Below, in pieces: positions 1,691 through 47,027 of a stretch of DNA of 64,000 bases (its first letter is position 1; each line of letters begins with the position of its first letter). Location: positions 1 to 64,000 of the forward strand of contig JAFGUB010000052.1 of assembly GCA_016938735.1 (NCBI GenBank), given 5' to 3'. The DNA comes from Campylobacterales bacterium (lineage in GTDB: Bacteria > Campylobacterota > Campylobacteria > Campylobacterales > Sulfurimonadaceae). Under the pieces are notes generated by a model that made no database searches, was not told the origin of the DNA, and saw only the letters and a program-made list of their open reading frames with translations. The translations under genes were made by a program, and so were the position numbers.

Positions 1691-3028
1691 ATGATCGCAA
1701 AAATACGCCAAAAACTCAACCGCGATCTCCACTTCAAAGAGATACTCACAGGCAGCGCCGTCACCTTCGTACTCAAAATGTCGGGAATGCTTCTGGGCTA
1801 TATCGTGGTGCTGATGGTGTCGCGGATGTACGGTGCCGAAGGGGTGGGGTTTTACAGCCTTTCGGTGAGCGTGCTGACCTTTTTGGCGATGGTTTCGGCT
1901 CTGGGGATGAATGTCTCTATACTGCGCTATGTCGGGCAGTTCAACAAAGCCGATGAAGCCCACAAGCTCAAACTGCTCTATCGCTACGCGCTGCAGCTCT
2001 CCTTGCCCGTGTCACTGGTGATGAGTGCTCTGCTCTTTTGGTTTGCCGAAGCGATCGCAACTTATGTGTTTGACAACGCTACTTACACGCAAGCTTTGAG
2101 GTTTGTAGCATTGATGGTGCCCTTTTTTACCCTGCAGGAGATCAGCGTAGAATTCATACGCGGACTCAAAAAGCTCAAAGTCTCAGAGTATCTGCGCAGC
2201 GTCAACCGACCGCTCTTCAACATCGTACTGCTTGGAGCGTGCGCATACGTGGCCTTTAGCGACATCATGGCACCGCTCTACACGCTGGGAGTAGGCATTG
2301 TAGCCGGAGGCGTCATCGCTTACATGTACATCCGCAAACACCTTCGTCATATCGCTGATAGCCCATCCGAAGGCTTTAACAAACGGGAGCTTCTGAACAC
2401 CTCTGCACCTATGATGGTGACCACACTGGCATCGTATCTGATGGGCAACATATCATTGGTGCTTTTAGAGGTTTATGCTACTACCGAAGAGGTGGGAATT
2501 TTTAGCGTGGCGTTTAAAATAGCGTCACTAATCAGCCTAACCCTGATGGTAGTCAACACCATTTCCGCACCTAAGTTTGCAGAGCTATATTGGGGCCAAA
2601 AACACAAAGAGCTACAGCAGATACTTGATCAATCGTCTAAGTTGATTTTCTTTAGTGCCGCAACATTGTCTTTTTTAATTTTAGTTTTTAACAAGCATAT
2701 TCTTGCTCTTTTTGGCGCTCAATTTGTCGAAGGTAGCATGGTTTTAGGCCTACTTATCATAGGAGAAATAATAAATGCTGCGAGCGGATCGGTTGGAGTG
2801 TTTTTAAATATGTCTGGCCACCAAAGTGTACTCAGAAACATTTTCTGTATTGCCTTATTCGTCAGTGCGCTGATACAAATAGTATTTATTCCAATGTATG
2901 GGATAATGGCAGCAGCTACAGCAGCAATGATAGGTATGATAATTGTCAATCTTATTCCTGCAATATATATACTGAGAAAATTAAATTTTCGAACATATTA
3001 TTCACCTTTTAAATGGAGAACAAAATGA
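1691..3028 (+). CDS. polysaccharide flippase, Wzx/MATE-like
   Basis: A 445-residue protein with about 12 hydrophobic segments and the layout of the polysaccharide-biosynthesis (RfbX/Wzx) flippase family. It is expected to move undecaprenyl-linked repeat units across the inner membrane. The N-terminal motif GSAVTFVLKMSGMLLGY is typical. It abuts manC and overlaps the sulfotransferase start. The oddity is base composition: the first ~950 bases are GC-rich with background codons, then from about 2640 the gene becomes AT-rich and stays so into the following genes. This points to a recombination junction inside the gene. A TACATGTA palindrome at 2321 (Tyr-Met-Tyr) lies in the GC-rich part. The specific substrate cannot be told. 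Confidence 0.88.
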   Translation: MIAKIRQKLNRDLHFKEILTGSAVTFVLKMSGMLLGYIVVLMVSRMYGAEGVGFYSLSVSVLTFLAMVSALGMNVSILRYVGQFNKADEAHKLKLLYRYALQLSLPVSLVMSALLFWFAEAIATYVFDNATYTQALRFVALMVPFFTLQEISVEFIRGLKKLKVSEYLRSVNRPLFNIVLLGACAYVAFSDIMAPLYTLGVGIVAGGVIAYMYIRKHLRHIADSPSEGFNKRELLNTSAPMMVTTLASYLMGNISLVLLEVYATTEEVGIFSVAFKIASLISLTLMVVNTISAPKFAELYWGQKHKELQQILDQSSKLIFFSAATLSFLILVFNKHILALFGAQFVEGSMVLGLLIIGEIINAASGSVGVFLNMSGHQSVLRNIFCIALFVSALIQIVFIPMYGIMAAATAAMIGMIIVNLIPAIYILRKLNFRTYYSPFKWRTK

Positions 3029-3891
3029 GCAAAGCAAAACAGCCAATTATAATAATAGGAATGCATAGATCTGGAACATCAATGATAACTAGGTTTATAC
3101 AAGAAATAGATTATTTTTTGGGCGATAGCCTTGATATCAATCACGAAGCGAATTATTTTATAAGATTAAATGAATGGATACTAAGGCAAACTAATTCTAC
3201 TTGGGATAATCCCTACAATTTCAAATTTTTACCTTTAACTGTTGAAGAGCACCTCAAAAAAGTTTGTGAACAGCATTTAGAACAACACGATAGAGTAAAG
3301 TATTTAGGATTAAAAAATTATTTTTCATATTCCAATATTAAAAACATTGATTTTAATTGGGGGTGGAAAGACCCAAGAAACAGTATTACACTTCCAATAT
3401 GGAAATCAATATTTCCTAATGCAAAAATAATACATATATACAGAAATCCTTTTGATGTCGCTATAAGCTTATATAGACGAGAAATTGATTACGAAGCCAA
3501 CTACAATAGCAATCTGATTAGCAAATTTAAGGAATTTTTTTTGTATCCAAATCATGTAGGATATAGCTTTTCGGTAAGAACTACAAAAGTTGATGAAGGT
3601 ATTAAATTATGGACAGAATATATGCAGTACATAGAGAGATACAAGTTAATGTATGATTATTTCGAAATAAAATATGAAGATTTTTTGGATAATCCAGTTG
3701 AAAGCTTAAAATCCCTTTCATCATATTTAGATGTTGATGTTCATGAAAGTAAATATATTGAAATTGCAGGGAAGGTGAATAGTGATCGGAAATATAGTTT
3801 TTTAAACGATCAAGATATGCTTGAACTATACAAGGAAAAATACAAATTTGATCAGATGGTAAAATCATATGGATATGGAGATTTGGCTTAA
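3025..3891 (+). CDS. sulfotransferase family protein
   Basis: Predicted PAPS-dependent sulfotransferase that would add sulfate to a sugar of the surface polysaccharide. The 5'-phosphosulfate-binding loop reads GMHRSGTSM near residue 12. The 3'-phosphate-binding motif reads IYRNPFDVAISLYRR near residue 140. Its 288 residues fit the family. I chose the ATG at 3025: it overlaps the upstream TGA (ATGA) and has GGAG six bases before it. An in-frame ATG at 3013 has no ribosome site. Strongly AT-rich codons, part of the low-GC island. Sulfated surface glycans are uncommon in this phylum, so the substrate is an open question. Confidence 0.82.
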   Translation: MSKAKQPIIIIGMHRSGTSMITRFIQEIDYFLGDSLDINHEANYFIRLNEWILRQTNSTWDNPYNFKFLPLTVEEHLKKVCEQHLEQHDRVKYLGLKNYFSYSNIKNIDFNWGWKDPRNSITLPIWKSIFPNAKIIHIYRNPFDVAISLYRREIDYEANYNSNLISKFKEFFLYPNHVGYSFSVRTTKVDEGIKLWTEYMQYIERYKLMYDYFEIKYEDFLDNPVESLKSLSSYLDVDVHESKYIEIAGKVNSDRKYSFLNDQDMLELYKEKYKFDQMVKSYGYGDLA

Positions 3892-4847
3892 TGCAAAATC
3901 CATCAGTTTTGATTTTATTAGCAACGTATAATGGAGAGAAATATATTGAAGAACAAATCACTTCAATTTACCAACAGACATATAGAAATTGGAAAATAAT
4001 TATTCATGATGATGGATCAAAAGATAATACAATAAATATAATCAATAAGTTTATAGAAGAAGATCCAAATAAAATTGAATTACTTAATGATTCTAAAAAG
4101 TTTAAGAGCGCGAATAAAAACTTTTCTCATTTAATTGAGTATGCAAAAAAGGTTAATGAGTATCAATATATAATGTTTTGTGATCAGGATGATTATTGGA
4201 ATGCAAATAAAATAGAAATTACATTAAATGGTATGAGAGATTATGAGAAAACATATTCTTCTATTTTGCCAATTCTGGTACATACAGATTTAGAGGTTGT
4301 AGATTATAGATTGAAAACAATAGGCAAATCATTTATGTCATACAACAAAATTGATCCTTCAAGGAATTCATTAAATTATTTATTGGCGCATAACACTATT
4401 ACAGGTTGCACAGTGATGGTCAATCGTCCTCTGCTCCAACTGTATTCATATTATGAAGATTCTATCATGCACGATTACTGGATAGGATTGATAGCGACTT
4501 GCTTTGGAAAAATTAATTATATAGATATTCCAACTATTCAATATCGACAACATGAGACCAATGATTATGGTGTAAGTAAATTCAATCTAGTATACTTATT
4601 GAGAAGGCTTAAAGAGTTACTAAATGAAAAAAATACAAGTTACACAAAGTTTATAACAAAACAAAAGCAACAAGCCAAAGCTTTTCTAGAACATTACCAA
4701 AATGATTTATCCATAAGAGAGAAAGCAATATTGAATGCTTTTTCTTCCAACAATGCACCAAAAATCTCTAGAATATGCAAAGCTATAAAATTTGAAATTT
4801 ATCGTAATGGCGTCATAAGAAATATTTTTTTCTTGGGTTATCAATGA
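3891..4847 (+). CDS. glycosyltransferase family 2
   Basis: A GT-A fold inverting glycosyltransferase of 318 residues. The N-terminus has the family signature VLILLATYNGEKYI, then HDDGSKDNT around residue 40 and the metal/acceptor motif CDQDDYW near residue 97. The CDQDDxW variant is frequent in rhamnosyltransferase-like members, but the sugar cannot be assigned here. It starts in a one-base overlap with the sulfotransferase stop (TAATG) and overlaps the polymerase start by 4 bp, so it is translated within one operon. AT-rich like its neighbours. Confidence 0.87.
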   Translation: MQNPSVLILLATYNGEKYIEEQITSIYQQTYRNWKIIIHDDGSKDNTINIINKFIEEDPNKIELLNDSKKFKSANKNFSHLIEYAKKVNEYQYIMFCDQDDYWNANKIEITLNGMRDYEKTYSSILPILVHTDLEVVDYRLKTIGKSFMSYNKIDPSRNSLNYLLAHNTITGCTVMVNRPLLQLYSYYEDSIMHDYWIGLIATCFGKINYIDIPTIQYRQHETNDYGVSKFNLVYLLRRLKELLNEKNTSYTKFITKQKQQAKAFLEHYQNDLSIREKAILNAFSSNNAPKISRICKAIKFEIYRNGVIRNIFFLGYQ

Positions 4848-5956
4848 TAACTAATCATCAATATAACATTAGTTATGGAATTGCACTTATTCTATTTGCA
4901 TCTATCACATTTTATCTGGCAAAAATCACGCCCATAAGCCCAATTTATGTGATATACCTAATATTCTTACCTATGCTGGCTATTGTCTACTTTTTTTCCA
5001 ACAAAATAATTCTCAGCATTGATGTTTTACTACTAATAATAGTATTGCTATATATATTGCTTTCAAATATATACTTTGATCACTTAAACTTAAATGGTGA
5101 ATTTATAAATTTCTATATTGGTGCAATAGCTTATATTTTTATACGTGGTATTAAATATAAAATAAGTAATGAAGAATATGTAAAGATAATAGAAGCTTCA
5201 TTGAAAGTTTCAATATCAATACTTTTAATTAGTACATTATTTAGGATTTCTAATCCAGATGCTCCAGATGGCACATTGAATTATATTTACTATAATGAAG
5301 ACTCGTCATTCTACTTATATAAATATAATTCTCTTTTATTTGCCGACTCCAATACGACAGGTCTAATTGTACTTATTCTACATTTTTTTGTTTTAATTGC
5401 AGAAAAAACTAATAAATTATTGCTTGTCCCGAAATACTATAAGTTCACTTTAATAGCTTTGATTTTCCTAAGTTTCTCCAGAGCAGCTATTTTCACTTTT
5501 TTGTTAGTGCAATTAATAATTAAGATTTTTTCAATAAAATCAATACTATATAAATTTCTTTTAATAAGTCTAGTGATTTCTACTATTGTGTCTATAATTT
5601 TCTATATTTTTTTAGACGCTAGTTTTTTAGTCAAATTCAATATACTGAACCTAGTCTATCACTATCTTCAAACAGCTAGTGAAAATCAATTGTTATTTGG
5701 TATCGGTCCTGGAAATGCTAAAGAATATTTGGGAATATATACGCATTCACTTTATTTGACTTACCTGGTTGAAACTGGCATTGTAGGATTCATTTTTTTC
5801 TTTATTTTTATTGTATATTATATGTACAAATATGACTTTTACGTTTTGTTCTCAGTATTAATTGTCAGTATTTCATATTTTTTATATCTCGGAGCACCTT
5901 TTTTATTTCTGCCGTTAGCAATTCTCGCAAATTTGAAAGATAGGAGATACAAGTGA
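4844..5956 (+). CDS. O-antigen/capsule polymerase, Wzy-like membrane protein
   Basis: A very hydrophobic 370-residue protein with about 10-11 membrane segments and a large periplasmic loop around residues 130-165, the usual Wzy architecture. Sequence is poorly conserved in this family. The call rests on topology, on the segment FSRAAIFTF (the ligase/polymerase families often have S-R-[GA] there), on GIGPGNAKEYLG and on its position among Wzx and glycosyltransferase genes. It would polymerise repeat units on the periplasmic face. It overlaps both neighbours by 4 bp, and AT content is among the highest in the window. Confidence 0.75.
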   Translation: MITNHQYNISYGIALILFASITFYLAKITPISPIYVIYLIFLPMLAIVYFFSNKIILSIDVLLLIIVLLYILLSNIYFDHLNLNGEFINFYIGAIAYIFIRGIKYKISNEEYVKIIEASLKVSISILLISTLFRISNPDAPDGTLNYIYYNEDSSFYLYKYNSLLFADSNTTGLIVLILHFFVLIAEKTNKLLLVPKYYKFTLIALIFLSFSRAAIFTFLLVQLIIKIFSIKSILYKFLLISLVISTIVSIIFYIFLDASFLVKFNILNLVYHYLQTASENQLLFGIGPGNAKEYLGIYTHSLYLTYLVETGIVGFIFFFIFIVYYMYKYDFYVLFSVLIVSISYFLYLGAPFLFLPLAILANLKDRRYK

Positions 5957-6996
5957 ATATCGCAATTATAATTCCATCTTTGGCAAACAAAGGGCCAATT
6001 AAAGTTGTTTCTGAGATTGAAAAAAATATCGATACTGGAGCACACAGCATAAAAATTTTTTACTTTGACGAATTGCTTGATATAGAGATGAAGTCTGAGT
6101 GCCAAAAAATTGATTTTTTTAAGAAAATTGAATTTGATGATTTCGATGTGGTACACACTCATGGTATTAGACCAGATGCTTACATATTTTTTCATAATAA
6201 TGCTATTCATAAGGCGAAAACAGTTTCAACATTGCATAATTATGTAAAAGATGACTTGCGTTATCAGTATAATTTATTAATATCATTTATATTTTCTCGT
6301 TTATGGAATATATTCACTTCCAAGCATAAAAAAATAGTGGTTTTATCAAATGATGCTCAAAAGTACTACAAAAAATTTTGGATGAACCAGAAAATATCAG
6401 TTGTCTATAATGGGATATCTCCGGTTCATAAACAATCATGTTTTAATGAGGACGTAAGAAAAAAAATTGCTTACGCCAAAGGGGATAATGCAATAGTAAT
6501 TGGGGCCATTGGTTTGCTAACAGCTAGAAAAGGATTTGATCAGCTTATAAATGTATTGCCATTGGATAAGCGCTTTCATCTTGTATTGATTGGTTCAGGA
6601 AAAGAGATGGGTAATCTTAAAAATTTGGCTAAAGACTTAAAGGTAGAAACTCAAGTTACTTTTTTAGGCTATCAAAATGAAGCAAATCAATATCTAGATT
6701 TATTTGATATTGTAGCTATACCTTCTAGATCCGAAGGGTTTCCAATTGCTCTGCTAGAAGCATGTAGTCAAAAAAAAGCAATAGTATGCTCAGATATTCC
6801 AATATTTCAAGAAGTATTTTCATCAAATGAAGTAAGTTTTTTTAAATTAAATGACTCTAGTTCTCTTCTTCAATCTTTGCATAGGGCTGTTGAAAATCGA
6901 TTAGAACTTCAAAAAAATTCTTATTCGAAATTTATGAAAAATTACACATCTGAGTTAATGGCACAAAAATATATAGACCTTTATGAGGAAAAATAA
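5953..6996 (+). CDS. glycosyltransferase family 4 (GT-B)
   Basis: A 347-residue GT-B enzyme. Key stretches are VVYNGISP around residue 155, IGLLTARKGFDQLI around 180, LIGSGKEM, and the nucleotide-sugar motif PSRSEGFPIALLEA (E-x7-E pattern) around residue 257. It retains the anomeric configuration of the donor by family precedent; the donor is unknown. Translation starts at GTG 5953, which overlaps the upstream TGA and has AGGAG nine bases before it. It belongs to the AT-rich island. Confidence 0.85.
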   Translation: MNIAIIIPSLANKGPIKVVSEIEKNIDTGAHSIKIFYFDELLDIEMKSECQKIDFFKKIEFDDFDVVHTHGIRPDAYIFFHNNAIHKAKTVSTLHNYVKDDLRYQYNLLISFIFSRLWNIFTSKHKKIVVLSNDAQKYYKKFWMNQKISVVYNGISPVHKQSCFNEDVRKKIAYAKGDNAIVIGAIGLLTARKGFDQLINVLPLDKRFHLVLIGSGKEMGNLKNLAKDLKVETQVTFLGYQNEANQYLDLFDIVAIPSRSEGFPIALLEACSQKKAIVCSDIPIFQEVFSSNEVSFFKLNDSSSLLQSLHRAVENRLELQKNSYSKFMKNYTSELMAQKYIDLYEEK

Positions 6997-7000
6997 ATAC

Positions 7001-7822
7001 ATGAACAATGACTTTTCTGTTCTTATGTCAATATACAAAAATGAAAAAGCAGAGTTTTTTGATAGAGCTATGTTTAGTATATGGGATGAACAAACTATTA
7101 AACCTTCAGAAATTGTACTAGTACAAGACGGTCCACTTCCGTCTGATGTTTTAGAAAGTATTTCGAAGTGGAAATATAAATTACGGGAACAACTAGTTAT
7201 TGTAACACTTGAAAATAATGTCGGGCTTGGTGATGCTTTAAATATTGGTATGCATTCTTGTACAAAAGATTTAATTGCGAGAATGGACACAGATGACATT
7301 GCTATGCCGCAACGCTTTGAAAAGCAACTAAAATGCATGAAAAGTTCAGATATTGAAATATGTGGTTCATGGGTAAATGAGTTTGAGAATAGTGAACTGA
7401 AAATTACTTCAATCAGAAGAGTCCCAGAAACCCATAAAGAAATAGTCTTATTTTCAAAAAAAAGAAATCCTATCAATCATCCATCAGTTATGTTTAAAAG
7501 AAAAACAATTGAAAATGTTGGTGGGTATAAAAAAATGATGTATTTCGAAGACTACTATCTATGGATAAGAATAATTCTAGATGGAGCTGTTTTTTACAAT
7601 ATTCAAGAATCATTACTTAATATGCGAGCTGGTCATGGTCAGTTAGAGCGAAGAAGAGGGTTTACATATTTTAAGCACGAATATGAGTTTTTTTTTAAAA
7701 TACATAGACTGGGACACATTTCTAATCGTGAACTTATTGAAAATTTGTCTATTAGGCTTATAGCTAGACTCATACCTAGGACTTTGCTTAGGGAAATTTA
7801 CACTAAAATCAGGAGAAGATAA
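7001..7822 (+). CDS. glycosyltransferase family 2 (AmsE/WcaA-like)
   Basis: A 273-residue GT2 enzyme. The start has FSVLMSIYKNE, followed by IVLVQDGPLP, GLGDALNIGM and the DxD-type motif RMDTDDIAMPQRF near residue 95, and later EDYYLWIR, which is typical for amylovoran/colanic-type GT2 enzymes. I prefer ATG 7001 because AGGA lies 11 bases upstream and the encoded protein then begins at the usual GT2 beta-strand. An in-frame ATG at 6983 inside the upstream gene has no ribosome site. Its stop overlaps the next start by one base. Confidence 0.84.
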   Translation: MNNDFSVLMSIYKNEKAEFFDRAMFSIWDEQTIKPSEIVLVQDGPLPSDVLESISKWKYKLREQLVIVTLENNVGLGDALNIGMHSCTKDLIARMDTDDIAMPQRFEKQLKCMKSSDIEICGSWVNEFENSELKITSIRRVPETHKEIVLFSKKRNPINHPSVMFKRKTIENVGGYKKMMYFEDYYLWIRIILDGAVFYNIQESLLNMRAGHGQLERRRGFTYFKHEYEFFFKIHRLGHISNRELIENLSIRLIARLIPRTLLREIYTKIRRR

Positions 7823-8802
7823 TGATAACTATAATAGGTGGTAGTGGTTTCATAGGCACTAGATTGTGTAAACGCTTAAAAGAAGTGGGTGAAGATTTTC
7901 TGATTGTTGATAAAATTAACAGCAAAAGTTATCCTCGTTCTTCTAAATATGCAGATGTTAGAAATTACAAGGAATTATTTGATGCAGTTGTGGGTGACGC
8001 CATTATTAACTTAGCTGCTGAGCATAGAGATGATGTGACTCCACGTAGCTTGTATGATGAAGTTAATGTTGAAGGCGCTAGAAATGTATGTAATGTCGCG
8101 AAAAATAAAAAGATCAATACCATTATTTTTACATCTTCTGTTGCTGTTTATGGATTCGCACCACTAGGTACTGATGAAAATGGTAGGATAAATTATTTCA
8201 ACGACTATGGTCGTACAAAATATGAAGCTGAAGTAATATATAAAGATTGGTATAATCAAGATCCTTTGAATAGAAAGTTGCTTATTGTCCGTCCTACAGT
8301 TGTCTTTGGCGAGCAAAATCGTGGTAATGTGTATAATTTATTGCGTCAAATAGCAAGTGGAAAATTTCTCATGATTGGTGATGGTTTAAATAGAAAGTCG
8401 ATGGCTTATGTAGAGAACGTGGCAGCTTTTTTACAATACGGTTTGAAACTTGAGAATGGTGTGTATATTTTCAATTATATTGATAAACCAGATTTTGATA
8501 TGAATACTTTGGTATCGAAAGTAAACTATTCTCTTGGGCGAAAAAAAATAATAAACTTCCGACTTCCATTTATGATTGGCTTCCTAATAGGAAAGTTGTT
8601 CGATTTCATTGCATATCTAAGTAATCGTAAGTTCGCAATCAGCTCAATTCGAGTTAAAAAATTCTGTTCAAATAGTATGTATGAAACATCTATTTCTACA
8701 CTTGATTTTGTACCTCCAGTTAAATTGGAAGATGCAATTGAAAAAACAATCAAATATGAATTTATTGAAAAGCATAATGATGAACTTTTTTATTCTGAAT
8801 AG
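7822..8802 (+). CDS. NAD-dependent epimerase/dehydratase (extended SDR)
   Basis: A 326-residue extended short-chain dehydrogenase. The dinucleotide-binding motif GGSGFIGTRL is at residues 6-15, an active-site Ser region reads TSSVAVYG, and the catalytic Tyr-Lys pair is in YGRTKYEAE near residue 131. Members convert nucleotide sugars (epimerases, dehydratases, reductases); which reaction is catalysed cannot be read from sequence. It is the last gene of the plus-strand polysaccharide operon and is followed by a stem-loop shared with the convergent gene. Confidence 0.85.
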   Translation: MITIIGGSGFIGTRLCKRLKEVGEDFLIVDKINSKSYPRSSKYADVRNYKELFDAVVGDAIINLAAEHRDDVTPRSLYDEVNVEGARNVCNVAKNKKINTIIFTSSVAVYGFAPLGTDENGRINYFNDYGRTKYEAEVIYKDWYNQDPLNRKLLIVRPTVVFGEQNRGNVYNLLRQIASGKFLMIGDGLNRKSMAYVENVAAFLQYGLKLENGVYIFNYIDKPDFDMNTLVSKVNYSLGRKKIINFRLPFMIGFLIGKLFDFIAYLSNRKFAISSIRVKKFCSNSMYETSISTLDFVPPVKLEDAIEKTIKYEFIEKHNDELFYSE

Positions 8803-8828
8803 TGAATGATAAAGATAGAGTTTTATAC

Positions 8829-8878
8829 CAAAATTCTAAGTCTCTTTGTGCGGAGTAATAAACTCCGTCCAAATTTTG
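8829..8878. terminator. bidirectional stem-loop between convergent genes
   Basis: Between two converging genes there is a hairpin CGGAGT-AATAA-ACTCCG (8851-8867). Outside it, CAAAATT (8829-8835) pairs with AATTTTG (8872-8878). A-rich and T-rich arms lie on the proper sides for termination in both directions. The gap holds no other gene. Confidence 0.6.
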
Positions 8879-8882
8879 TTTA

Positions 8883-11783
8883 CTATTTATAAAGACCTAT
8901 TGGAATACTCTTGGTAGTTCTAAGTTTTTGTCTACTTGAAATAGGTGCGAAATATTTGTTGGTTCCCTCTATTATGTCTTCAGTAATAAAATTCATGTTT
9001 TTTGTATCAATGAAGTTTGGTTTTATATTACGAACGTTGATTCCTAGCCAATCACTTGCACCATCTATAATGTTTGTATCAATCGTGTAAGGCTCTTTTT
9101 CAACATTTCCATACATGGCTATTGCTTTATTCTCATTTTCACTAATAATATTATTGGCTATTACAATATTTTTAGGCTTTTCGTCATTGACATTGTCACT
9201 CATTTTGGTACCTACTACAATACCATCACGTGTATTTTTATATGCTACGTTGTTTAAGATATATGCATTTTTTATAGTATTTGGGGGCATCCTGTCTTGA
9301 CCAATAACTATGCCATCTTTATTATAAGCACTAATATTGTTGTATACATAGATGTTTTCACTTCCGCCTATTGGAGTCTCATTCGCGATTTTAATACCTC
9401 GATTACCACAATATGTGACAATATTGTTAGATATTTCGATGTTACTTAACCACCCTCTAGCATCAAGGTATATTCCATCAGTTGCCATATGGTGTACATT
9501 GTTACCAGTGATGATAATATTTGAACCACCATCCTTTACATCTATACCAATGCCATTGTTGTGGTTATTGACATTGCCATTATGATGTACATTGTTATCC
9601 TTTACGAGGATTTCAGTCGATTTTGAAATACTGATCGCTTCTTGATCACCTATGTAGTTGTTATATTTGCACTCATTGCCTTCAATTGTGACGTTGCTTG
9701 CACTGATAAATATTGCAGATATCGCCGTGTATTCAATAACACAATTTATGACCGAAACATATGATGCATTAGTAATATTGATACCAGCGTATGTAGAATT
9801 TTTTATTGTAATATTTTTTATTGTTATATATTTTCTTCCCCACAAATCTATAATATTTTGTTTTTTATTTGTAGCCAGATTTTGACCATTAATAATCACG
9901 TGTTCATTGTTGTAAGCTTGTACAGTTATTCTATCTTCTGGATTTTTGGAAGAATCTTTTTGACCAATAAATAATGGTTTATTTATCAAATATTCACCTT
10001 CTCGGATATTCAAAGTATCACCAGGTAGCAAAATTTTTACTACTTTTTCTATATCTTTGAATGGATGAGAAATGGACCCATCATTGTTGTTATCTCCATT
10101 AAGAAAATCGAGAAAGTATAATCTGCCATTGCCCTGGATAGTGTTTTGCGTATCTCCAATGTTTTGTGCTGAATTGATTTCTAGGATATTGCTTGAGGAA
10201 ATTAGTTCCTCAACCACAAAAAACTCCCCACTCTTCACCACACTCACCGCCACATCCTGATAATCCGGAATGCTTACATGTAACTCCTCCGGCAGCGTCT
10301 CCATAGCCGACTGCACAAACACCAGCCACTCCCTATTAGGCTCCTCCCCCTTCACCAGCGCAAACGCCCACACGCCCTGCGCGTCGGTATCGAGCATGTA
10401 CCATCCCAGCTCGCCACGGTACATTTCGGGGATGTTCTTGTCGTGCGGGTTGGTCACATTGGGGTTTTTCACCAGCGTGCCGTTTTCCCAGAAATCTTTG
10501 AGAATGTCGCTTTTGTGGACCATCTCTACCGAGTCGATGAGCTGCACGAAGTGCTCCATCACGCTTGCGTTGTCTTCGTTTTCTGCTGCCACTTCGCGTA
10601 CGATGCTGGGGCGGTTGAGCCACAGGTCGAACTGGGCAAAGCCACGGTAGCGCTCGGCATCGCCCGCGATGCTAGGCGCGCCGATGGTCGCCTCCCACCA
10701 GAAGTCGTTGTTGAGAAACTTGGTATCTTCGAGCAAAAAGGGCAGGCTGTTGGCGCTGGCGTGGGGCGAGTTCAGGCTCGTGTCGTCCTCGCCGCTACCC
10801 AGCACAAAATCCACCGATGCCCCGTCAAATATCAGCGGCCACGCCGAGAGCGTCCCCTCGGTGGTGGTCTCATCCTGAGCCATCCAGTCGTCGGTTTTGC
10901 CGATGTCTTGGTTGGCAAAAGTGTTGCGCCCTACGAAGATGGCGTTTTGGCTCCACGCGCTGCTCAGGCCGCTCTTCATCCCCGTGTGCAGGGCGCGGTA
11001 GCGCTCGAACCATGCGTCGCCGTACTGCTTGTTGCTCAGGCCCGCGCTTGCAGCGCTCGCTCTGGGCTCTTCGCTGCGCGACAGAAACACCACCAGCGGC
11101 GGGTTGGGGTACCACTCTTGCAGCTGTTTCATCAGCTCGGAGCTCATCCACTTTTTGCCGGCGGCCTGCCATGTTTTGGTAGCGCCTTTGGGGCTGAGAG
11201 CGCCGTTTATGAGGATGCCCTTTTGTTTGGCGTAGGCGGCGTCTTCGATCAGCGGCAGCGCGAACGACCCGGCCACCAGCACCAGCGGCAGCTTCAGCTC
11301 AGCCGCACGCTTGATGCTGCGCTCGTAGTACTCCATAGGGATGTAACGCGCCCAGTACGGGTCAAGCTCCCAAGCCACCAGCGCATGATGCCCCTGCTCC
11401 ACCAGCGAAAGCATAAAATCAGGGCTCATCCCCTCCACATCGCTGCGCGCGCCCGTGTCCCAGTGCCCAAACAGCGGCAAAGAGCGGTTGCCGTCTTTGG
11501 CCTGCAGCGCATACTGCGTGATCTGCGCCGCCGCCTCTTCAGGCGAGAGCACCGGCTGGAACTCCCCAACGGCGCTAGGCGCTTCGCCCATCTCCTCCTC
11601 AAGCGACTTGGGCGGGATGTTCACCGCCACCGCGTCCGAGCCGAAATACTCCAGCTTCTTCATCGGCGGCTGCACTTTCGCCACGCTCTCCGGCTTAACC
11701 GGCTCCGCTTTTTTGAGCGAACATCCGGTCACAACGAACAAAACAAGGGCTACAAGGAGGGTAGAAAAGAGGGCAGAACGCAT
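8883..11783 (-). CDS. large lipoprotein with C-terminal right-handed beta-helix
   Basis: A 966-residue predicted lipoprotein: hydrophobic signal then a lipobox ending in VTGC (Cys21). Residues ~90-520 resemble a sugar-processing catalytic domain (phrases such as LPLFGHWDTGA, VAWELDPYW); I suspect a glycoside-hydrolase-like fold but cannot name a family. Residues ~555-930 are a parallel beta-helix. They open with DGSISHPFKDIEKVV and GDTLNIREGEY, then repeat N-x-[IV]-x-x-N turns (NSTYAGINIT, NNVHHMATDGIYL, NNIVTYCGNRGI), as in pectate-lyase or epimerase-type proteins. It probably acts on the polysaccharide made by the facing operon. The DNA for residues 1 to ~526 is GC-rich and the rest AT-rich, with the junction near 10205, so the gene looks chimeric. 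Start ATG 11783 is supported by the signal peptide. Confidence 0.75.
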   Translation of the reverse strand: MRSALFSTLLVALVLFVVTGCSLKKAEPVKPESVAKVQPPMKKLEYFGSDAVAVNIPPKSLEEEMGEAPSAVGEFQPVLSPEEAAAQITQYALQAKDGNRSLPLFGHWDTGARSDVEGMSPDFMLSLVEQGHHALVAWELDPYWARYIPMEYYERSIKRAAELKLPLVLVAGSFALPLIEDAAYAKQKGILINGALSPKGATKTWQAAGKKWMSSELMKQLQEWYPNPPLVVFLSRSEEPRASAASAGLSNKQYGDAWFERYRALHTGMKSGLSSAWSQNAIFVGRNTFANQDIGKTDDWMAQDETTTEGTLSAWPLIFDGASVDFVLGSGEDDTSLNSPHASANSLPFLLEDTKFLNNDFWWEATIGAPSIAGDAERYRGFAQFDLWLNRPSIVREVAAENEDNASVMEHFVQLIDSVEMVHKSDILKDFWENGTLVKNPNVTNPHDKNIPEMYRGELGWYMLDTDAQGVWAFALVKGEEPNREWLVFVQSAMETLPEELHVSIPDYQDVAVSVVKSGEFFVVEELISSSNILEINSAQNIGDTQNTIQGNGRLYFLDFLNGDNNNDGSISHPFKDIEKVVKILLPGDTLNIREGEYLINKPLFIGQKDSSKNPEDRITVQAYNNEHVIINGQNLATNKKQNIIDLWGRKYITIKNITIKNSTYAGINITNASYVSVINCVIEYTAISAIFISASNVTIEGNECKYNNYIGDQEAISISKSTEILVKDNNVHHNGNVNNHNNGIGIDVKDGGSNIIITGNNVHHMATDGIYLDARGWLSNIEISNNIVTYCGNRGIKIANETPIGGSENIYVYNNISAYNKDGIVIGQDRMPPNTIKNAYILNNVAYKNTRDGIVVGTKMSDNVNDEKPKNIVIANNIISENENKAIAMYGNVEKEPYTIDTNIIDGASDWLGINVRNIKPNFIDTKNMNFITEDIIEGTNKYFAPISSRQKLRTTKSIPIGLYK

Positions 11784-33437: not shown

Positions 33438-33830
33438 TCATAACGGCCGAAATACTTCCAACACAATCTCCTTGACGATTTTATAGTGCTTGTCGTTGGC
33501 GGTGATCAGCGTCATGCCGTAGCTTGTAGCGGTTGCGGCGATCAGACTGTCGGCTAGCTGCATGGAGTGGCTCAAAAAATGCTCCTCTACATAAAACAGT
33601 GCGCGCGATGCGATCTCTTCATTGATGTAGATCGTTTTGACACTCCACTGTTTGAGCGTCTTTTGCAAGACCCTCAATTCATCTTTGTTTCTCATGCCCT
33701 GCACCAGCTCCATGTAGGTCACCGATGAGATACAAAACGCCCCCATTGTGTGGATCAGCTCATAGGCTTTTTGATTGCCTCGAAGATACCAGATCAGCAC
33801 ATCGGTGTCGATCAGATGATCATAGATCAA
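33438..33830 (-). CDS. vapC: PIN-domain ribonuclease toxin, VapC type
   Basis: A 130-residue PIN-domain protein. The acidic residues are in LIDTDVLIWYL (Asp near residues 8-10), MELVQGM (Glu near 50), LADSLIAATA (Asp near 95) and ITANDKHY (Asp near 112). VapC toxins cleave tRNA or rRNA. The likely start is TTG 33830, with AAGGGAG a few bases upstream and inside the end of the antitoxin gene. The longer reading into 34007 runs across the antitoxin and is not real. The start assignment is the weak point. Confidence 0.82.
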   Translation of the reverse strand: MIYDHLIDTDVLIWYLRGNQKAYELIHTMGAFCISSVTYMELVQGMRNKDELRVLQKTLKQWSVKTIYINEEIASRALFYVEEHFLSHSMQLADSLIAATATSYGMTLITANDKHYKIVKEIVLEVFRPL

Positions 33831-34053
33831 AATCTCTCCCTTGGCGCATCGCTCTGACCATCTCATCGACGCTATCGCCACGCTCTTTCCATAGCCCAAA
33901 GAGTGCATCGTCTTTTGTCTCATGGGCATCTTGCGCGGGGATGAGTTTCGCTTTGGCCTTTCCTCTGTAGGTGATGGTGACCTCCTCACCCTTACTGAGT
34001 GCATCAAAGAGCCTGTTAATGTTAAATCTCAAATCTTTTGCGGTGGCGATCAT
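33820..34053 (-). CDS. Phd/YefM-type antitoxin of the VapC pair
   Basis: A 77-residue protein: MIATAKDLRFNINRLFDAL, then EEVTITYRGKAKAKLIP, the beta-strand hallmark of Phd/YefM antitoxins. The C-terminal tail FGLWKERGDSVDEMVRAMR would bind the toxin. ATG 34053 has AAGGA eight bases upstream. It overlaps the toxin gene by 11 bp. A palindrome at 34082-34093 is a likely operator. Confidence 0.83.
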   Translation of the reverse strand: MIATAKDLRFNINRLFDALSKGEEVTITYRGKAKAKLIPAQDAHETKDDALFGLWKERGDSVDEMVRAMRQGRDFDL

Positions 34054-40162: not shown

Positions 40163-42385
40163 ATGTCACATCGCACAAGCCTGCTTGGATTTCCCCGCAT
40201 CGGGGAGCACCGAGAACTCAAATTTGCCCTAGAGCAGTACTGGAAGGGCGCGCTTGATTTCGACGCCCTGGACAATCTCGCACAGATGCTACGCGCACGC
40301 CACTTTCAGCGCCAAAAAGCCTCCGGCATCGACGAAGTTGCCATCAACGACTTTAGCTTTTATGACAACATGCTCGACATGATGGTCGCACTGGGAAGCA
40401 CACCGGAGCGTTTTGGCGATATCGACGACCCCGTCGCACGCTATTTTGCGATGGCGCGCGGGGATAGCACCCACGCTGCGCTGGAGATGACCAAATGGTT
40501 CAACACCAACTACCACTACCTTGTACCCGAACTGCACGCGCAGTTTCGCTTTGCGCCCGTCAATCCGGAAAAAATCCTGCGCGAATATGCCGAAGCACAG
40601 GCGCAAGGCATACACGGACGCATCGCGCTGATCGGCCCGATCACCTTTTTGGCCCTCTCCAAATGCGATGAGCAGGTGCGCGGCGTACTCTTTGACGGGC
40701 TGTTAAATCAATATGCGGCGCTGCTCGAAGCGCTAAGTCCGCTGCAAGCCGCCTTTACGTTTCATGAAAGCGCACTGGTCTGCGACCCGAGCGCGGAGGA
40801 TCTCTCCTTGCTCAAGATCGCCTATGAGCGGCTGGGCAAGTGTGCTGATATCCGCGTCGCCACCTACTTTGAGCACGCGAGTGAGGCCACGGCGGTGCTG
40901 CTGCGCACCCCGATCACGTCGCTCGCGCTCGATTTTGTCCACGGTCCGGCCAATTTTGACGCACTCGAAGCCATCGGCAAGAGCACCAAAACACTCGTCG
41001 TCGGGATCATCAACGGACGCAACGTCTGGAAAAACGACCTTGAAGCGTCACTGCGTAACCTGGAGCAGATCGCTTTACATGTACCCAAAGAGCGCCTCAT
41101 CATTGGCACCTCATGCTCACTTTTACATGTACCCTATAGCCTCGATCATGAGCACGCGCTTCCTTCGGAGGTTCGCGCACTGCTGGCGTTTGCGCACGAG
41201 AAGCTAGAAGAACTCGCCTTGCTCTCGCGCGCCTTTTTTGAGGGTGAAGCCCTGCCGCCGCGTTTGAGCGCCCCTGTGCGCAGCGATGACGCGGTGCAAG
41301 CACGCCTAGCCGCACTCACGCCCAACGACTACCGCCGACCCTACCCCTTCGCCATCCGCCGTGAAGCCGCCAAGGAGCTCTTTGATCTGCCGATTTTGCC
41401 CACCACCACCATCGGCTCTTTTCCCCAAACACCCGAAATCCGCAAAGCGCGTCAAGAGTTTAAAAAAGGCTTGATCACCCCCGAAGCGTATGAAACGGCA
41501 ATGAAAGAGGCCATAGCCCACTGCGTGAGCCTGCAAGAGTCGCTGGGGCTGGACGTGCTGGTGCATGGTGAGTTTGAGCGCAACGATATGGTGGAGTACT
41601 TCGGCGAACAACTGCGCGGCTTCGCCTTTAGCGCCAACGGCTGGGTGCAAAGCTACGGCAGCCGATGCGTCAAGCCGCCCCTGCTCTACGCCGACGTCAG
41701 CCGCATCAAACCCATGACGCACTTTTGGAGCAGCTTCGCCCAAAGCCTCACCGACAAACCCATGAAAGGGATGCTCACCGGCCCTGTCACCATTCTCAAC
41801 TGGAGCTTTGTGCGCGAAGATCAGAGCAGAGAGCAAAGCGCCAAGCAGATCGCACTGGCCATCAGCGACGAGATCGACGATCTGCAACGCGCAGGCATCA
41901 AGATGATTCAGGTGGATGAAGCGGCCTTCAAAGAGGGCTACCCGCTGCGCCGCAGTGAACGCGAAAAGTACGAGCGCTGGGCGCTGGAGAGCTTCTTACT
42001 CGCTACCGCGATAGCCGAGCGCGATACGCAGATCCACACCCACATGTGCTACAGCGAATTTACCGACATCATCCACACCATCGAAGCGATGGACGCCGAC
42101 GTCATCTCCATCGAAACCTCACGCAGCGGCAACCGACTCCTGCGCATTTTCGAGCAGGTGGGCTACAAACAAGAGATCGGACCGGGCGTCTACGATATCC
42201 ACTCCCCGCGCGTCCCAAGCGTGGAAGAGATCGAACACCAAATCCGCGCCCTACTCGAAGTGCTCAGCCCCGCTCAGCTCTGGATCAACCCCGACTGCGG
42301 CCTCAAAACCAGAGGCTGGAGCGAGACCGAAGCGGCGCTGCGCCATATGGTGCAAGCGGTCAGAAACGTCCGCGCGGCGCTGTGA
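40163..42385 (+). CDS. metE: cobalamin-independent methionine synthase
   Basis: Transfers a methyl group from 5-methyltetrahydropteroyl-triglutamate to homocysteine. The 740-residue length is typical. The C-terminal catalytic domain has the phrase LPTTTIGSFPQTPEIRK near 415, zinc ligands in HTHMCYSEF (His/Cys near 627-629) and the last Cys in NPDCGLKTRGW near 711. The acidic Zn/substrate region is DVISIETSRS. ATG 40163 follows AAGGA and begins the conserved TSLLGFPRIG. Two TACATGTA copies 48 bp apart (41076, 41124) each encode Leu-His-Val. It appears monocistronic. Confidence 0.95.
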   Translation: MSHRTSLLGFPRIGEHRELKFALEQYWKGALDFDALDNLAQMLRARHFQRQKASGIDEVAINDFSFYDNMLDMMVALGSTPERFGDIDDPVARYFAMARGDSTHAALEMTKWFNTNYHYLVPELHAQFRFAPVNPEKILREYAEAQAQGIHGRIALIGPITFLALSKCDEQVRGVLFDGLLNQYAALLEALSPLQAAFTFHESALVCDPSAEDLSLLKIAYERLGKCADIRVATYFEHASEATAVLLRTPITSLALDFVHGPANFDALEAIGKSTKTLVVGIINGRNVWKNDLEASLRNLEQIALHVPKERLIIGTSCSLLHVPYSLDHEHALPSEVRALLAFAHEKLEELALLSRAFFEGEALPPRLSAPVRSDDAVQARLAALTPNDYRRPYPFAIRREAAKELFDLPILPTTTIGSFPQTPEIRKARQEFKKGLITPEAYETAMKEAIAHCVSLQESLGLDVLVHGEFERNDMVEYFGEQLRGFAFSANGWVQSYGSRCVKPPLLYADVSRIKPMTHFWSSFAQSLTDKPMKGMLTGPVTILNWSFVREDQSREQSAKQIALAISDEIDDLQRAGIKMIQVDEAAFKEGYPLRRSEREKYERWALESFLLATAIAERDTQIHTHMCYSEFTDIIHTIEAMDADVISIETSRSGNRLLRIFEQVGYKQEIGPGVYDIHSPRVPSVEEIEHQIRALLEVLSPAQLWINPDCGLKTRGWSETEAALRHMVQAVRNVRAAL

Positions 42386-42420
42386 TGCGTCCCCTTTGCG
42401 GGGGCAAAAAAGTAAATAGA

Positions 42421-42461
42421 CGTGACAGTTTTATAAAATTGAATGCTATAATACTGTCACG
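42421..42461 (+). promoter_or_regulatory. promoter between 9-bp inverted repeats, wHTH-GGCT/amidoligase operon
   Basis: CGTGACAGT (42421-42429) and ACTGTCACG (42453-42461) are perfect inverted repeats 23 bp apart. Between them lies TATAAT (42447-42452) with TTGAAT upstream. The second arm directly follows the -10, over the transcription start. This looks like a tightly autoregulated promoter, 25 bases before the ATG at 42486. Confidence 0.75.
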
Positions 42462-42485
42462 TTACTTCGCCAAAATGAGACAAAA

Positions 42486-43088
42486 ATGCACATCATAGAT
42501 GACCTTCAAAACGAAATTAGTAAACTTCCTTTTGACAAAACTTTTTCGTTCTCGACACTAAGTGTTGCGGGAGCCTCCAAAGATACGATTCGCAAATATT
42601 TACACAGACTGCACGAGCGTGGCGAAATCTCCATTGTAAAGAGAGGGGAATTCAAAAGAATCAAACCTCTCAACGAGTTGATTTTTATTTATGGCTCACT
42701 GAAAAAAGGGTTTGACAACCACCACCTACTAGAGCGATACGCTAAGCGTCTGGGGAAGGCAAAAACCGTAGGTAAGTTTGCGATGTTTGAAGACAGCTTC
42801 GGCAACTATCCCTATATCGTGCCTAAAAAAGTACACCACATCGAAGGCGAGCTGTATCAAATCACACGCCAAGAGCTGCTGCATCAACTTGATGAATTTG
42901 AAGGTGCTCCGGAGTTTTATCAGCGCAAAAAAATCTTGGTAAAATCACACCACGGGACGCAAAAGGCGTATGTGTACATCCGCACCGACGCCAAAATACC
43001 GCAAGATCAACAGCCCCTAAAATCGTGGCAAAACAACACAGACTATAAAGTGCAACAACTCCAAGAGTTCTTGAATCGGTTGTACTAA
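42486..43088 (+). CDS. winged-helix / gamma-glutamylcyclotransferase (AIG2-like) fusion
   Basis: A 200-residue two-domain protein. Residues 1-65 are a winged helix (FSFSTLSVAGASKDTIRKYLHRL, then wing GEISIVKRGEFKRI) like those of AbiEi-type or DUF6088 regulators. Residues ~68-180 are a GGCT/AIG2 fold: the substrate loop FIYGSLKKGF near 70 and the conserved acidic LDEFEGAPEFYQRK near 136. GGCT enzymes cyclise gamma-glutamyl amines, releasing 5-oxoproline. The three-base gap to the amidoligase gene implies a joint function in making and removing gamma-glutamyl-type amide links. The DNA-binding domain probably acts on the inverted repeat upstream. Codon use is more AT-rich than the neighbours. 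Confidence 0.82.
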   Translation: MHIIDDLQNEISKLPFDKTFSFSTLSVAGASKDTIRKYLHRLHERGEISIVKRGEFKRIKPLNELIFIYGSLKKGFDNHHLLERYAKRLGKAKTVGKFAMFEDSFGNYPYIVPKKVHHIEGELYQITRQELLHQLDEFEGAPEFYQRKKILVKSHHGTQKAYVYIRTDAKIPQDQQPLKSWQNNTDYKVQQLQEFLNRLY

Positions 43089-43091
43089 CTC

Positions 43092-43934
43092 ATGGCGGAC
43101 ACCACAACACGCTATCGCTCCTCTGCAACCTGTTCATACCCAAACCACAAAATACAAGCGGGAGATATTTATCAATTCGGCTGTGAGCTGGAGTTTTATA
43201 TTGACACCGACAGGCATAAATTTACTGAAGCAGTCGATGCGATCCGATGTGCTGTCGCAGAGATCACCGATGTTGATATTCTTGTCGATCTCACATATCT
43301 GCCCGATGAGCCCGATCGATATCAATGCATACAGATTAAGCCCGACAACTCACTAGATGGACACGGTATCGAGATCAACACGCCGATTACCTCTCGTCAA
43401 GGTATCAAACACTATCTCACACATTTACTTCCGCTCATAGAACAATACGGCTACACAAACGCGGATACGGGCTTGCACTTTCACATCTCCACCGTGCAAA
43501 CCGATGGCGTCAACTTGAACTTTTATCTCTACATGCTGATGTGCCATGAACGAGGGCTGCTTTCATCATGGGCACCGAGAACCGGCTATAGCCATAACGT
43601 GATGGATATTTTGCTCAAACACACCAAAGCCGAAGCCAGAACCAAAAAAACTGAAAAAGGAACCGTCTGGAATCTTGAAAAAATTGCACCTAACCGTATC
43701 GAAATCAAAACCATCGGTGGGACCAATTATCACCAAAATGCTGCTCGAATCATCGGAGAATTTGAAGAGTACGCCGGACTTTTTGATCTGTTGCGGTTCG
43801 ACAGAAAGCCCGTATGGCGAGCAGAGCTTATAGCGCAACATAAAAACCTTGTCGCCTCGACTCCAAAAGAGGCCCAAAGCGAATTTTCTAAAGCTATAGC
43901 GCAGACTAATTTAATGGCTACGGGCAAAGCCTAA
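43092..43934 (+). CDS. amidoligase (glutamine-synthetase-like fold)
   Basis: A 280-residue member of the Amidoligase_2 family. Visible motifs are FGCELEFYID near residue 28 (E-x-E metal ligands), GHGIEINTPI near 93, TGLHFHIST near 127 (H-x-H) and NRIEIKTIGG near 203. These correspond to the Glu/His/Arg constellation of the glutamine-synthetase fold, so ATP-dependent amide-bond formation is expected. The nucleophile and acceptor are unknown. Genome-context work on amidoligases has linked the family to AIG2-like cyclotransferases, and the gene immediately upstream is exactly that. The pair looks like a mobile unit. Confidence 0.82.
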   Translation: MADTTTRYRSSATCSYPNHKIQAGDIYQFGCELEFYIDTDRHKFTEAVDAIRCAVAEITDVDILVDLTYLPDEPDRYQCIQIKPDNSLDGHGIEINTPITSRQGIKHYLTHLLPLIEQYGYTNADTGLHFHISTVQTDGVNLNFYLYMLMCHERGLLSSWAPRTGYSHNVMDILLKHTKAEARTKKTEKGTVWNLEKIAPNRIEIKTIGGTNYHQNAARIIGEFEEYAGLFDLLRFDRKPVWRAELIAQHKNLVASTPKEAQSEFSKAIAQTNLMATGKA

Positions 43935-44006: not shown

Positions 44007-45029
44007 ATGGATCTCAACGTACAAAATTACCGCGACGCGTTTGAGCATAGAATCTACCGCTTCTCGCTCTTCTCGGCGGTTTTTACTTCCCTGCTGATCA
44101 GCATCATCTATGCCTTCGCGCAGATGTATCTCGATGCCCTCTTTGGGCTTATCGCTTTTGTGCTCTATCTAGGCGTGTATCAGCTCTACCGCCAAGGCAA
44201 AATCGGCTACGACCTTGCGACGCGTATCTTCGTCCTCTCCGCCGGCGTCTTGATTCTGGGCGGCTTTATGGTTTCTAGCTCAGTGCTGGATGGATACATT
44301 TTTATAATTTTGGTTCCGATTATAGCCATCGTCTTACGTCCGAAAGTCGAAGCGTTTGTGATCATCACCGCCTATTACGCTCTTTTTTTGGCCATCAATC
44401 TGCTGGAGATTGGCGCTGTGACGATCGAGCCTCGCCTGCTGGTGCTCACTCTCTTTGTCGAGAACATCGCACTCTTTTTCGTCAACTCCTACGTCGATGA
44501 GACGAGGCGCCTGCGCTACAACCTCGTGCGTCAAAACAGCCGCCTAAGCCATGAAGTCGCCACCGATCCGCTCACCGGCATCGCCAACCGCCGATCTTTT
44601 GACGAATATATCGCCGAACGCATCGAAACGTTTGCTCAAACGCGCAGCCCTTTTGCCTTCGCCATCGTCGATATCGACCACTTTAAAGAGGTCAACGACA
44701 CCTACGGACACGACAAAGGCGACGAGGTACTGCGTAATGTGGCACAGATACTACAGCAATCGATCCGCGCCGATGACTTTGCGGCACGCTACGGAGGAGA
44801 GGAGTTTGTCATCTTTTTCAACGACTGCACACTAGAGCACGGCGCACTTTTGGCCGAGCGCATCAGAGAGCGGATCGAACGCAGCGCCTTGCTGGGTGAA
44901 CGAACCCTAAGCGTGAGCATCGGTGTCGGCGCACCCGTCGCAGGCGACACTCCAAACACCATCTTTAGCCGAACCGACGAAGCGCTTTATAGAGCCAAAC
45001 AGAACGGTCGCAACCGCGTAGAGCGATAG
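44007..45029 (+). CDS. membrane diguanylate cyclase
   Basis: A 340-residue protein. Residues ~20-165 contain about six hydrophobic helices, a sensory membrane domain I cannot assign to a named MASE type. A GGDEF domain occupies ~175-340 with DPLTGIANRR near 182, VDIDHFKEVND and the active site RYGGEEF near 260. RADD five residues before it is an intact inhibitory I-site. It is predicted to make cyclic di-GMP under feedback control. It is a lone gene; the downstream gap has two TTACATGTAA palindromes. Confidence 0.9.
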   Translation: MDLNVQNYRDAFEHRIYRFSLFSAVFTSLLISIIYAFAQMYLDALFGLIAFVLYLGVYQLYRQGKIGYDLATRIFVLSAGVLILGGFMVSSSVLDGYIFIILVPIIAIVLRPKVEAFVIITAYYALFLAINLLEIGAVTIEPRLLVLTLFVENIALFFVNSYVDETRRLRYNLVRQNSRLSHEVATDPLTGIANRRSFDEYIAERIETFAQTRSPFAFAIVDIDHFKEVNDTYGHDKGDEVLRNVAQILQQSIRADDFAARYGGEEFVIFFNDCTLEHGALLAERIRERIERSALLGERTLSVSIGVGAPVAGDTPNTIFSRTDEALYRAKQNGRNRVER

Positions 45030-46481: not shown

Positions 46482-46737
46482 TTAGCGTTCGTAGTGGTAT
46501 TTACACTATGATCGCACTCTCGCTCACCTTGTACACCAAACGGTGCTCATCAGTAATGCGTCTAGACCAGTACCCCACGAAATCGTGCTTCAGCGCCTCA
46601 GGTTTACCGATGCCGACAAAAGGGTTGCGGTCGATCTCTTTAATCAGCGCAATAATCTTTTGATGGATCTTTTTGTCATTGACCGCCCACAGATTAAAAT
46701 CATGAAACGCCTGCGCTTCAAAGACCACCTGTTTCAT
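46482..46737 (-). pseudogene. YoeB/Txe-type toxin, frameshifted before the catalytic C-terminus
   Basis: The frame from 46737 encodes a clear YoeB relative: FEAQAFHDFNLW, IDRNPFVGIGKPEALKHDFVGYWSRRI, EHRLVYKV. It then stops at 46501 after Ala-Ile-Ile-Val (78 residues). In another frame the next bases (46505-46482) read Cys-Lys-Tyr-His-Tyr-Glu-Arg-stop, exactly the expected YoeB ending, which carries the catalytic His-Tyr pair. A small indel at about 46505 therefore removes the catalytic end. The open frame alone (46501-46737) would make a protein without RNase activity by family precedent. Sequencing error is the main alternative. Confidence 0.8.
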
Positions 46738-46958
46738 TCAAAAAGCTTAGGATCGGCAGGTACAAGGTGTTGGTTTTCTCTAATATTGGCGATGGAGTCC
46801 AAAAGCTTCTCTTTGTTGGCCGCAGAAGCGCACAAATAGTCCGTATCATCCGATTCGCTGATGGAGAGCTCCACCCTTTTGTTGTGAAACATCTGGCGCA
46901 GCTTATCGATAAATGCATAGTTCAACTCTTCACTCTCAAGCACAAAATGGGCATTCAT
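46734..46958 (-). CDS. antitoxin of the YoeB-like pair
   Basis: A 74-residue acidic protein beginning MNAHFVLESEELNYAFID, with SISESDDTDYLCASA in the middle and the toxin-binding end NQHLVPADPKLFE. It occupies the antitoxin position of a YefM-YoeB type operon and overlaps the toxin start by 4 bp. ATG 46958 has AAGGA eight bases upstream; an in-frame ATG at 46967 is too close to that site. It remains intact although the toxin is broken. Confidence 0.78.
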   Translation of the reverse strand: MNAHFVLESEELNYAFIDKLRQMFHNKRVELSISESDDTDYLCASAANKEKLLDSIANIRENQHLVPADPKLFE

Positions 46959-47027
46959 GAGGCTCATCCTTGATGTAACTTTTGGGTTATTTTAGTACAA
47001 AAAGATAAAAGTACCGTCGATTGCTAT

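Follow-up and report, generated by a model that had tools for sequence, protein, structure and literature searches.

A winged-helix cyclotransferase encoded ahead of an amidoligase-fold protein: a candidate AbiE-like toxin–antitoxin operon in Campylobacterota

Between metE, which ends at position 42385, and the gene for a GGDEF protein, which starts at 44007, the stretch of Campylobacterales DNA analyzed here (64,000 nt, “the window”) contains two co-directional ORFs separated by a gap of 3 bases. The upstream gene, ORF1, encodes a winged helix joined to a gamma-glutamylcyclotransferase (GGCT) domain, and the downstream gene, ORF2, encodes a protein with the likely fold of an amidoligase. What might a putative DNA-binding domain, an enzyme expected to break amide bonds, and an enzyme expected to form them be doing in a single operon?

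Ligases of the glutamine synthetase fold use ATP to activate a carboxylate and then couple it to an amine. In GGCT enzymes, cyclization serves to break gamma-glutamyl amides. Taking this chemistry together with regulation of the AbiE type, we interpret the cassette as an AbiE-like operon with a toxin that writes and an antitoxin that erases. Within this proposal, we infer DNA binding, toxicity, gamma-glutamyl chemistry, a substrate or target, and neutralization by erasing rather than by binding, as follows. The cassette would be a mobile, autoregulated toxin–antitoxin operon with the build of AbiE and other enzymes. The ORF2 amidoligase would be the toxin, using ATP to couple an essential cellular (or phage) molecule, through an amine, to a carboxylate, which is most probably the gamma-carboxyl group of glutamate. 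The GGCT domain of ORF1 would be the antitoxin, removing the amide by cyclization and releasing 5-oxoproline if glutamate had been attached, and the AbiEi-type winged helix would bind CGTGACA repeats flanking the promoter and so repress the operon. We give about an even chance to the reading as a whole, i.e., an AbiE-like autoregulated pair of an amidoligase toxin and a cyclotransferase that both erases its amide (probably gamma-glutamyl) product and represses the operon. Here, we describe the evidence on which it rests and the alternatives to it.

The cassette and its operator

The features of the cassette are collected in Table 1. Its two genes have GC contents of 43% and 46%, as compared to 53–58% in the adjoining genes, and the difference is also evident at third codon positions (GC3 of 48–50% vs 65–71%); a difference in base composition had been claimed in an initial annotation of this DNA, and rightly so. 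The same annotation remarked that the cassette lacks an iterated palindrome. This is true of TACATGTA, which occurs 39 times across the whole window and never in the cassette, but the absence carries no weight because a 1.5-kb stretch would be expected to hold only ~0.9 copies. We therefore rejected the argument that the cassette is foreign for want of the palindrome, since the shortfall is not significant. The copies of TACATGTA, which resembles a HIP1-like iterated motif, are spread through the window, mostly within ORFs, and are absent from an AT-rich stretch at 2.3–10.3 kb. The low-GC block at 3000–10000 (26–32% GC), with glycosyltransferase, sulfotransferase-like, and epimerase-like genes, is probably a transferred surface-polysaccharide cluster. 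No integrase adjoins the cassette in the window itself. Other genes in the window include one for a YoeB toxin 2.6 kb downstream of the cassette (46501–46967, minus strand; PF06769, 1.5e-29), accompanied by a small, overlapping, antitoxin-sized upstream ORF, and one for a PIN-domain (VapC-like) protein (33438–34007, minus strand; 1.5e-13).

Table 1. Positions of the genes and regulatory elements of the cassette, numbered from the first base of the window
Feature	Position	Strand	Description
Left operator arm, ACGTGACAGT	42420–42429		Half of a perfect 10-bp inverted repeat; overlaps the −35 region
Extended −10 element, TGCTATAAT	42444–42452	+	Between the operator arms; read from sequence
Right operator arm, ACTGTCACGT	42453–42462		Half of a perfect 10-bp inverted repeat
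ORF1, candidate antitoxin and autorepressor	42486–43088	+	200 aa, stop included; AbiEi-type winged helix (residues 1–60) fused to GGCT/GGACT (AIG2-like) domain (residues 66–182)
ORF2, candidate toxin	43092–43934	+	280 aa; divergent glutamine-synthetase-fold amidoligase

Upstream of ORF1 lies an inverted repeat, ACGTGACAGT-N23-ACTGTCACGT (42420–42462), whose perfect 10-bp arms are 23 bp apart. In simulated 100-bp spacers with the same dinucleotide make-up (Markov model), such a repeat arises with a probability of ~0.0035. The core arrangement CGTGACA-N22..32-TGTCACG occurs only once in the 2.85-Mb genome. Homologous loci preserve it: CGTGACA arms measuring ~39–41 bp from end to end surround a TATAAT box in 12 distinct loci, some with single mismatches (e.g., L009), and the extended −10 element or a near variant occupies the same position, with one locus (L013) lacking the TGn extension. 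A divergent locus, L122, retains the −10 box and the left half-site and lacks the right arm. Because the repeat is unique in the genome and conserved in homologous loci, we do not attribute it to chance. The layout described by the initial annotation, a promoter between perfect inverted repeats, thus stands, with arms of 10 bp rather than the 9 bp given.

Inverted repeats that overlap the operon promoter, as these do, are also a feature of AbiE. In the abiE operator, which AbiEi binds, the arms of the perfect repeat measure 11 bp and are separated by 27 bp (PMC3985639), an arrangement close to the 10-bp arms and 23-bp spacer here. Repression by AbiEi requires the full-length protein, and its C-terminal domain is enough for antitoxicity (PMC3985639; PMC7319586). 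The combination of a winged helix with this operator therefore points to autorepression, as published for AbiE.

Domain assignments of the two proteins

ORF1 was correctly described by the initial annotation as a winged helix fused to a GGCT-like domain, encoded three bases ahead of ORF2. Residues 66–182 match PF06094 (GGACT) at 6e-24, with a score of 85.4 bits against a curated cut-off of 22.8, and residues 1–57 match a PADLOC AbiEi model at 1.3e-6. PADLOC AbiEi matches are also found in seven of eight homologues. In ORF1, the match is confined to the winged helix; the C-terminal antitoxin domain of AbiEi is absent, and the GGCT domain takes its place. The Pfam AbiEi models gave no match in ORF1, and a direct hhalign comparison with a single AbiEi encoded nearby, in the same island, was not significant. 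For these two reasons, “AbiEi-type” is only the nearest description of the predicted winged helix, with descent unproven.

The solved structures closest to the model of the ORF1 GGCT domain (Foldseek) are mouse and human GGACT (1vkb and 3jub). GGACT acts on gamma-glutamylamines; it is a housekeeping metabolic enzyme and, in contrast to ORF1, has no DNA-binding domain. The catalytic residues of the mouse protein, A2LD1, are Tyr7, Gly8, Thr9, Leu10, Glu82, and Tyr88 (PMC2954230). In a phmmer alignment, these correspond to Y69, G70, S71, L72, E139, and Y145 of ORF1, such that the Y-G-(T/S)-L motif and the equivalent of Glu82 are kept. The first five residues are invariant in 10 diverse homologues with identities as low as 36%, and Y145 is found in nine of the 10; loss of the catalytic glutamate, which would have counted against the annotated enzyme, is thus not seen. 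A close relative of the GGCT domain (49% identity over the domain) is encoded in Sulfurovum (L086, 1501–2157, minus strand), preceded by a different N-terminal region. No amidoligase gene was found near it within 3.5 kb of sequence. We set this protein aside as a separate architecture, possibly another domain swap.

The invariant residues bear on the first alternative, in which ORF2 is toxic and ORF1 neutralizes it without catalysis, by binding ORF2 or its target in the manner of type II or classic type IV systems, with the GGCT domain serving as a binding fold. The operon structure and the evidence from decay and mobility described below fit this alternative as well as they fit a write-and-erase pair. 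It also has a precedent in AbiE, where the C-terminal domain of AbiEi alone is antitoxic and no AbiEi–AbiEii complex was seen (PMC3985639). A mere binding domain, however, need not keep Y69, G70, S71, L72, and E139 across 10 homologues, and we consider neutralization without catalysis unlikely.

The assignment of ORF2 is less direct. Searches of Pfam, NCBIfam, PHROGs, and PDB sequences with ORF2 gave no significant match, and weak matches to FERM_M, DUF211, and similar families were dismissed as chance. The label “amidoligase” therefore needed evidence from fold and profile comparison. An AlphaFold2 model of ORF2 (pLDDT 78.7, pTM 0.80) has 47 matches among viral structures at E ≤ 1e-3, the best at 3e-10, many of them annotated as amidoligases. 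Against the PDB, the top match of the model is glutamine synthetase, a weak one (E = 3e-3), with Dop and glutamate–cysteine ligase lower down. An amidoligase-like family of jumbo phages (A6) served as a profile bridge: the ORF2 family profile matches it at 4.7e-16 (hhalign), with closely similar motifs, and one member of the phage family (L081) in turn matches Amidoligase_2 at 7e-4. Two divergent ORF2 homologues match the Amidoligase_2 model PF12224 directly (L122 at 0.0011, 19.4 bits; L121 at 0.05, 13.9 bits), both below the cut-off of 22; ORF2 itself has no PF12224 match, and the curated cut-off is not passed. The motifs GCExEF, DxSLxxxGxEI, TGxHxHIS, and EI(K/R) are invariant or nearly so, and G30, E32, E34, D85, S87, E94, G127, H129, H131, and E204 are invariant in nine diverse members.

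Together, the fold comparison, the profile bridge, the sub-threshold matches of homologues, and the motifs support placing ORF2 in the glutamine-synthetase-fold amidoligase superfamily. Canonical bacterial Amidoligase_2 proteins from relatives gave no alignment in profile comparison, and for this reason ORF2 is classed as a divergent branch of these predicted ligases; a direct comparison with the amidoligase of phage CW02 also failed to match. The annotation of ORF2 as an amidoligase is thus borne out by fold, bridge, and motifs and not by Pfam, from whose model the protein is too divergent. Another amidoligase-like protein, with pentapeptide repeats, is encoded in the 635-kb genome of an uncultured phage (L031, 3830–5224) and has many relatives among IMG/VR phages.

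Distribution, decay, and surroundings

The pair is rare. It is present in 3 of 397 genomes of the class; the one scan of a genome collection relied on exact peptide seeds and may have missed distant relatives. Homologues are found in Sulfurimonas, in Sulfurovum, on Aliarcobacter plasmids, on one IMG/VR contig, and on one MAG contig labeled Flavobacteriaceae (L004), which is only 4.6 kb long and may be misbinned; all well-supported members lie within Campylobacterota. In the first set of homologues, ORF1 is directly upstream of every ORF2, with spacings of −1 to +3 bp. An intact ORF1 precedes every complete ORF2 (10 of 10: the window, L003, L004, L005, L006, L009, L013, L120, L121, and L122; L002, truncated by a contig end, was left out of the count), and none of the recovered loci has an intact ORF2 that lacks ORF1. 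The pair therefore recurs elsewhere, contrary to one outcome that the initial annotation had named as fatal to its view. Judged by sequence comparison, it is under purifying selection, with pairwise dN/dS of ~0.05–0.06 for both genes in closely related pairs.

Five distinct loci are decayed, and in all five it is ORF2 that is broken or missing. In L007, an IS3-like element is inserted in ORF2 and ORF1 is intact. In L085, ORF2 is gone and ORF1 is present save for a changed start codon. L123 retains only the C-terminal half of ORF2. In L133, ORF2 is absent and ORF1 broken. In a congener, the orthologous locus (L008/L111), upstream of the same GGDEF gene, carries an in-frame deletion of residues 49–231 of ORF2, leaving a 95-aa remnant, and a Y1/RAYT-like transposase stands in place of the promoter and most of ORF1. 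The asymmetry matches what is predicted of a toxin–antitoxin pair, although the numbers are small (five loci) and simple co-decay could yield part of the pattern.

Both the decay and the distribution weigh on a second alternative, that of a non-toxic, self-regulated metabolic module in which the product of the amidoligase is an amide metabolite, gamma-glutamyl or other, that the GGCT–winged-helix protein senses or degrades, tuning expression. Phage genes for amidoligases, RimK-type ligases, and GGCT proteins are found close together, an association of amidoligases with GGCT proteins is reportedly known from the comparative genomics of Iyer et al. (2009), and an operator dedicated to this operon would suit such a module. 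Yet no further biosynthetic gene accompanies the pair, its distribution is sporadic and includes plasmids and defense islands, and the gene consistently broken in decayed loci is ORF2, not ORF1. A metabolic role is, in our view, improbable.

The initial annotation had called for a survey of homologous pairs for mobility and phage-defense context, and both are in evidence: there are plasmid copies, and a tRNA hotspot carries differing defense cargo. On an Aliarcobacter plasmid, integrases adjoin the pair, and a viral contig from IMG/VR carries one copy. In Sulfurovum, four loci (L005, L006, L007, and L085) share an upstream tRNA-Gly/Leu/Cys/Ser cluster, of which the start of L007 covers only the last tRNA. 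Their downstream cargo differs: L005 has a methyltransferase, an SNF2 helicase, and a NOV_C protein; L006/L117 has a PAPS-reductase-like protein and a PADLOC-candidate ATPase along with a complete AbiE system; and L085/L118 has Vsr, HATPase, and Z1. The last three genes and one more, beside the orphan ORF1 (L118, 7598–13265), look like a defense cluster. In L003, genes for a Fic protein of a PADLOC candidate family and a PLD-domain protein lie upstream, and a transposase gene lies downstream.

Such neighbors (AbiE, the Fic protein, a DNA methyltransferase with an SNF2 helicase, and Vsr–HATPase–Z1) and the copy on a viral contig would also suit a dedicated anti-phage system, with an amidoligase that either modifies some phage component or is switched on by infection, an ORF1 that does no more than protect the host, and addiction-like features that are secondary, but this is very unlikely, given that toxin–antitoxin pairs gather in such islands too, that no trigger or sensor is apparent, and that neither protein matches any PADLOC system besides the match of the ORF1 winged helix to AbiEi.

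Relation to known systems

The reading of the cassette as a toxin–antitoxin pair had a forerunner in the initial annotation, which proposed a write-and-erase pair with the eraser doubling as repressor. The toxin–antitoxin-like logic is supported by the operon structure, the operator, the decay of ORF2, and mobility, and the catalytic residues are kept; DNA binding, toxicity, the chemistry, and the target are what we infer. The closest known system is AbiE (AbiEi/AbiEii, type IV), which is likewise bicistronic and mobile, places the antitoxin gene first, has an N-terminal winged helix like that predicted in ORF1, and occurs in a defense context; a true AbiE even lies within the same island in L117. 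The two differ in their enzymes. A GGCT domain replaces the C-terminal antitoxin domain of AbiEi, and an amidoligase-fold protein replaces the nucleotidyltransferase toxin, with no match to the AbiEii DUF1814 nucleotidyltransferase in ORF2 in Pfam or PADLOC.

In Salinivibrio phage CW02 and in Tn6164 of Clostridioides difficile (Orf22–Orf23), an Amidoligase_2 protein is encoded near a stand-alone GGCT protein. These GGCT proteins have no winged helix, the amidoligases belong to other subfamilies, and the clusters in phages are larger and also encode RimK-type ligases and amidotransferases. Among the annotated phage genes inspected, no winged helix was fused to GGCT; all were stand-alone GGCTs of ordinary length. 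Amidoligase and GGCT genes as neighbors are already known from phages and mobile elements, and what appears to be new here is the winged-helix fusion pair as a candidate toxin–antitoxin system of an undescribed kind.

The proposed logic, in which a toxin writes a covalent modification and an antitoxin enzyme removes it, resembles that of DarTG and DarT–NADAR; write-and-erase toxin–antitoxin systems are known for ADP-ribosylation (PMC11125620 for NADAR). The sequences are unrelated, and the modification there is of nucleic acids by ADP-ribose, as opposed to a predicted amide ligation here. No description of an amidoligase/GGCT toxin–antitoxin pair was found in the open-access literature covered by the searches, and an earlier account elsewhere may exist. 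That the cassette is the first toxin–antitoxin system with an amide (gamma-glutamyl) ligating toxin and a mark-erasing cyclotransferase antitoxin, whose fused winged helix represses the operon, is a tentative claim that we hold with considerable doubt.

If the proposal is true, amide ligation and its reversal would be a new chemistry among the few write-and-erase toxin–antitoxin systems, and the widespread pairing of amidoligases with GGCT proteins, whose role has been open since its discovery by comparative genomics, would gain a concrete function. The AbiEi-type regulatory module would be swappable onto unrelated antitoxin enzymes. Damage removal and transcriptional control would then be coupled in one protein, within a cassette of only 1.5 kb.
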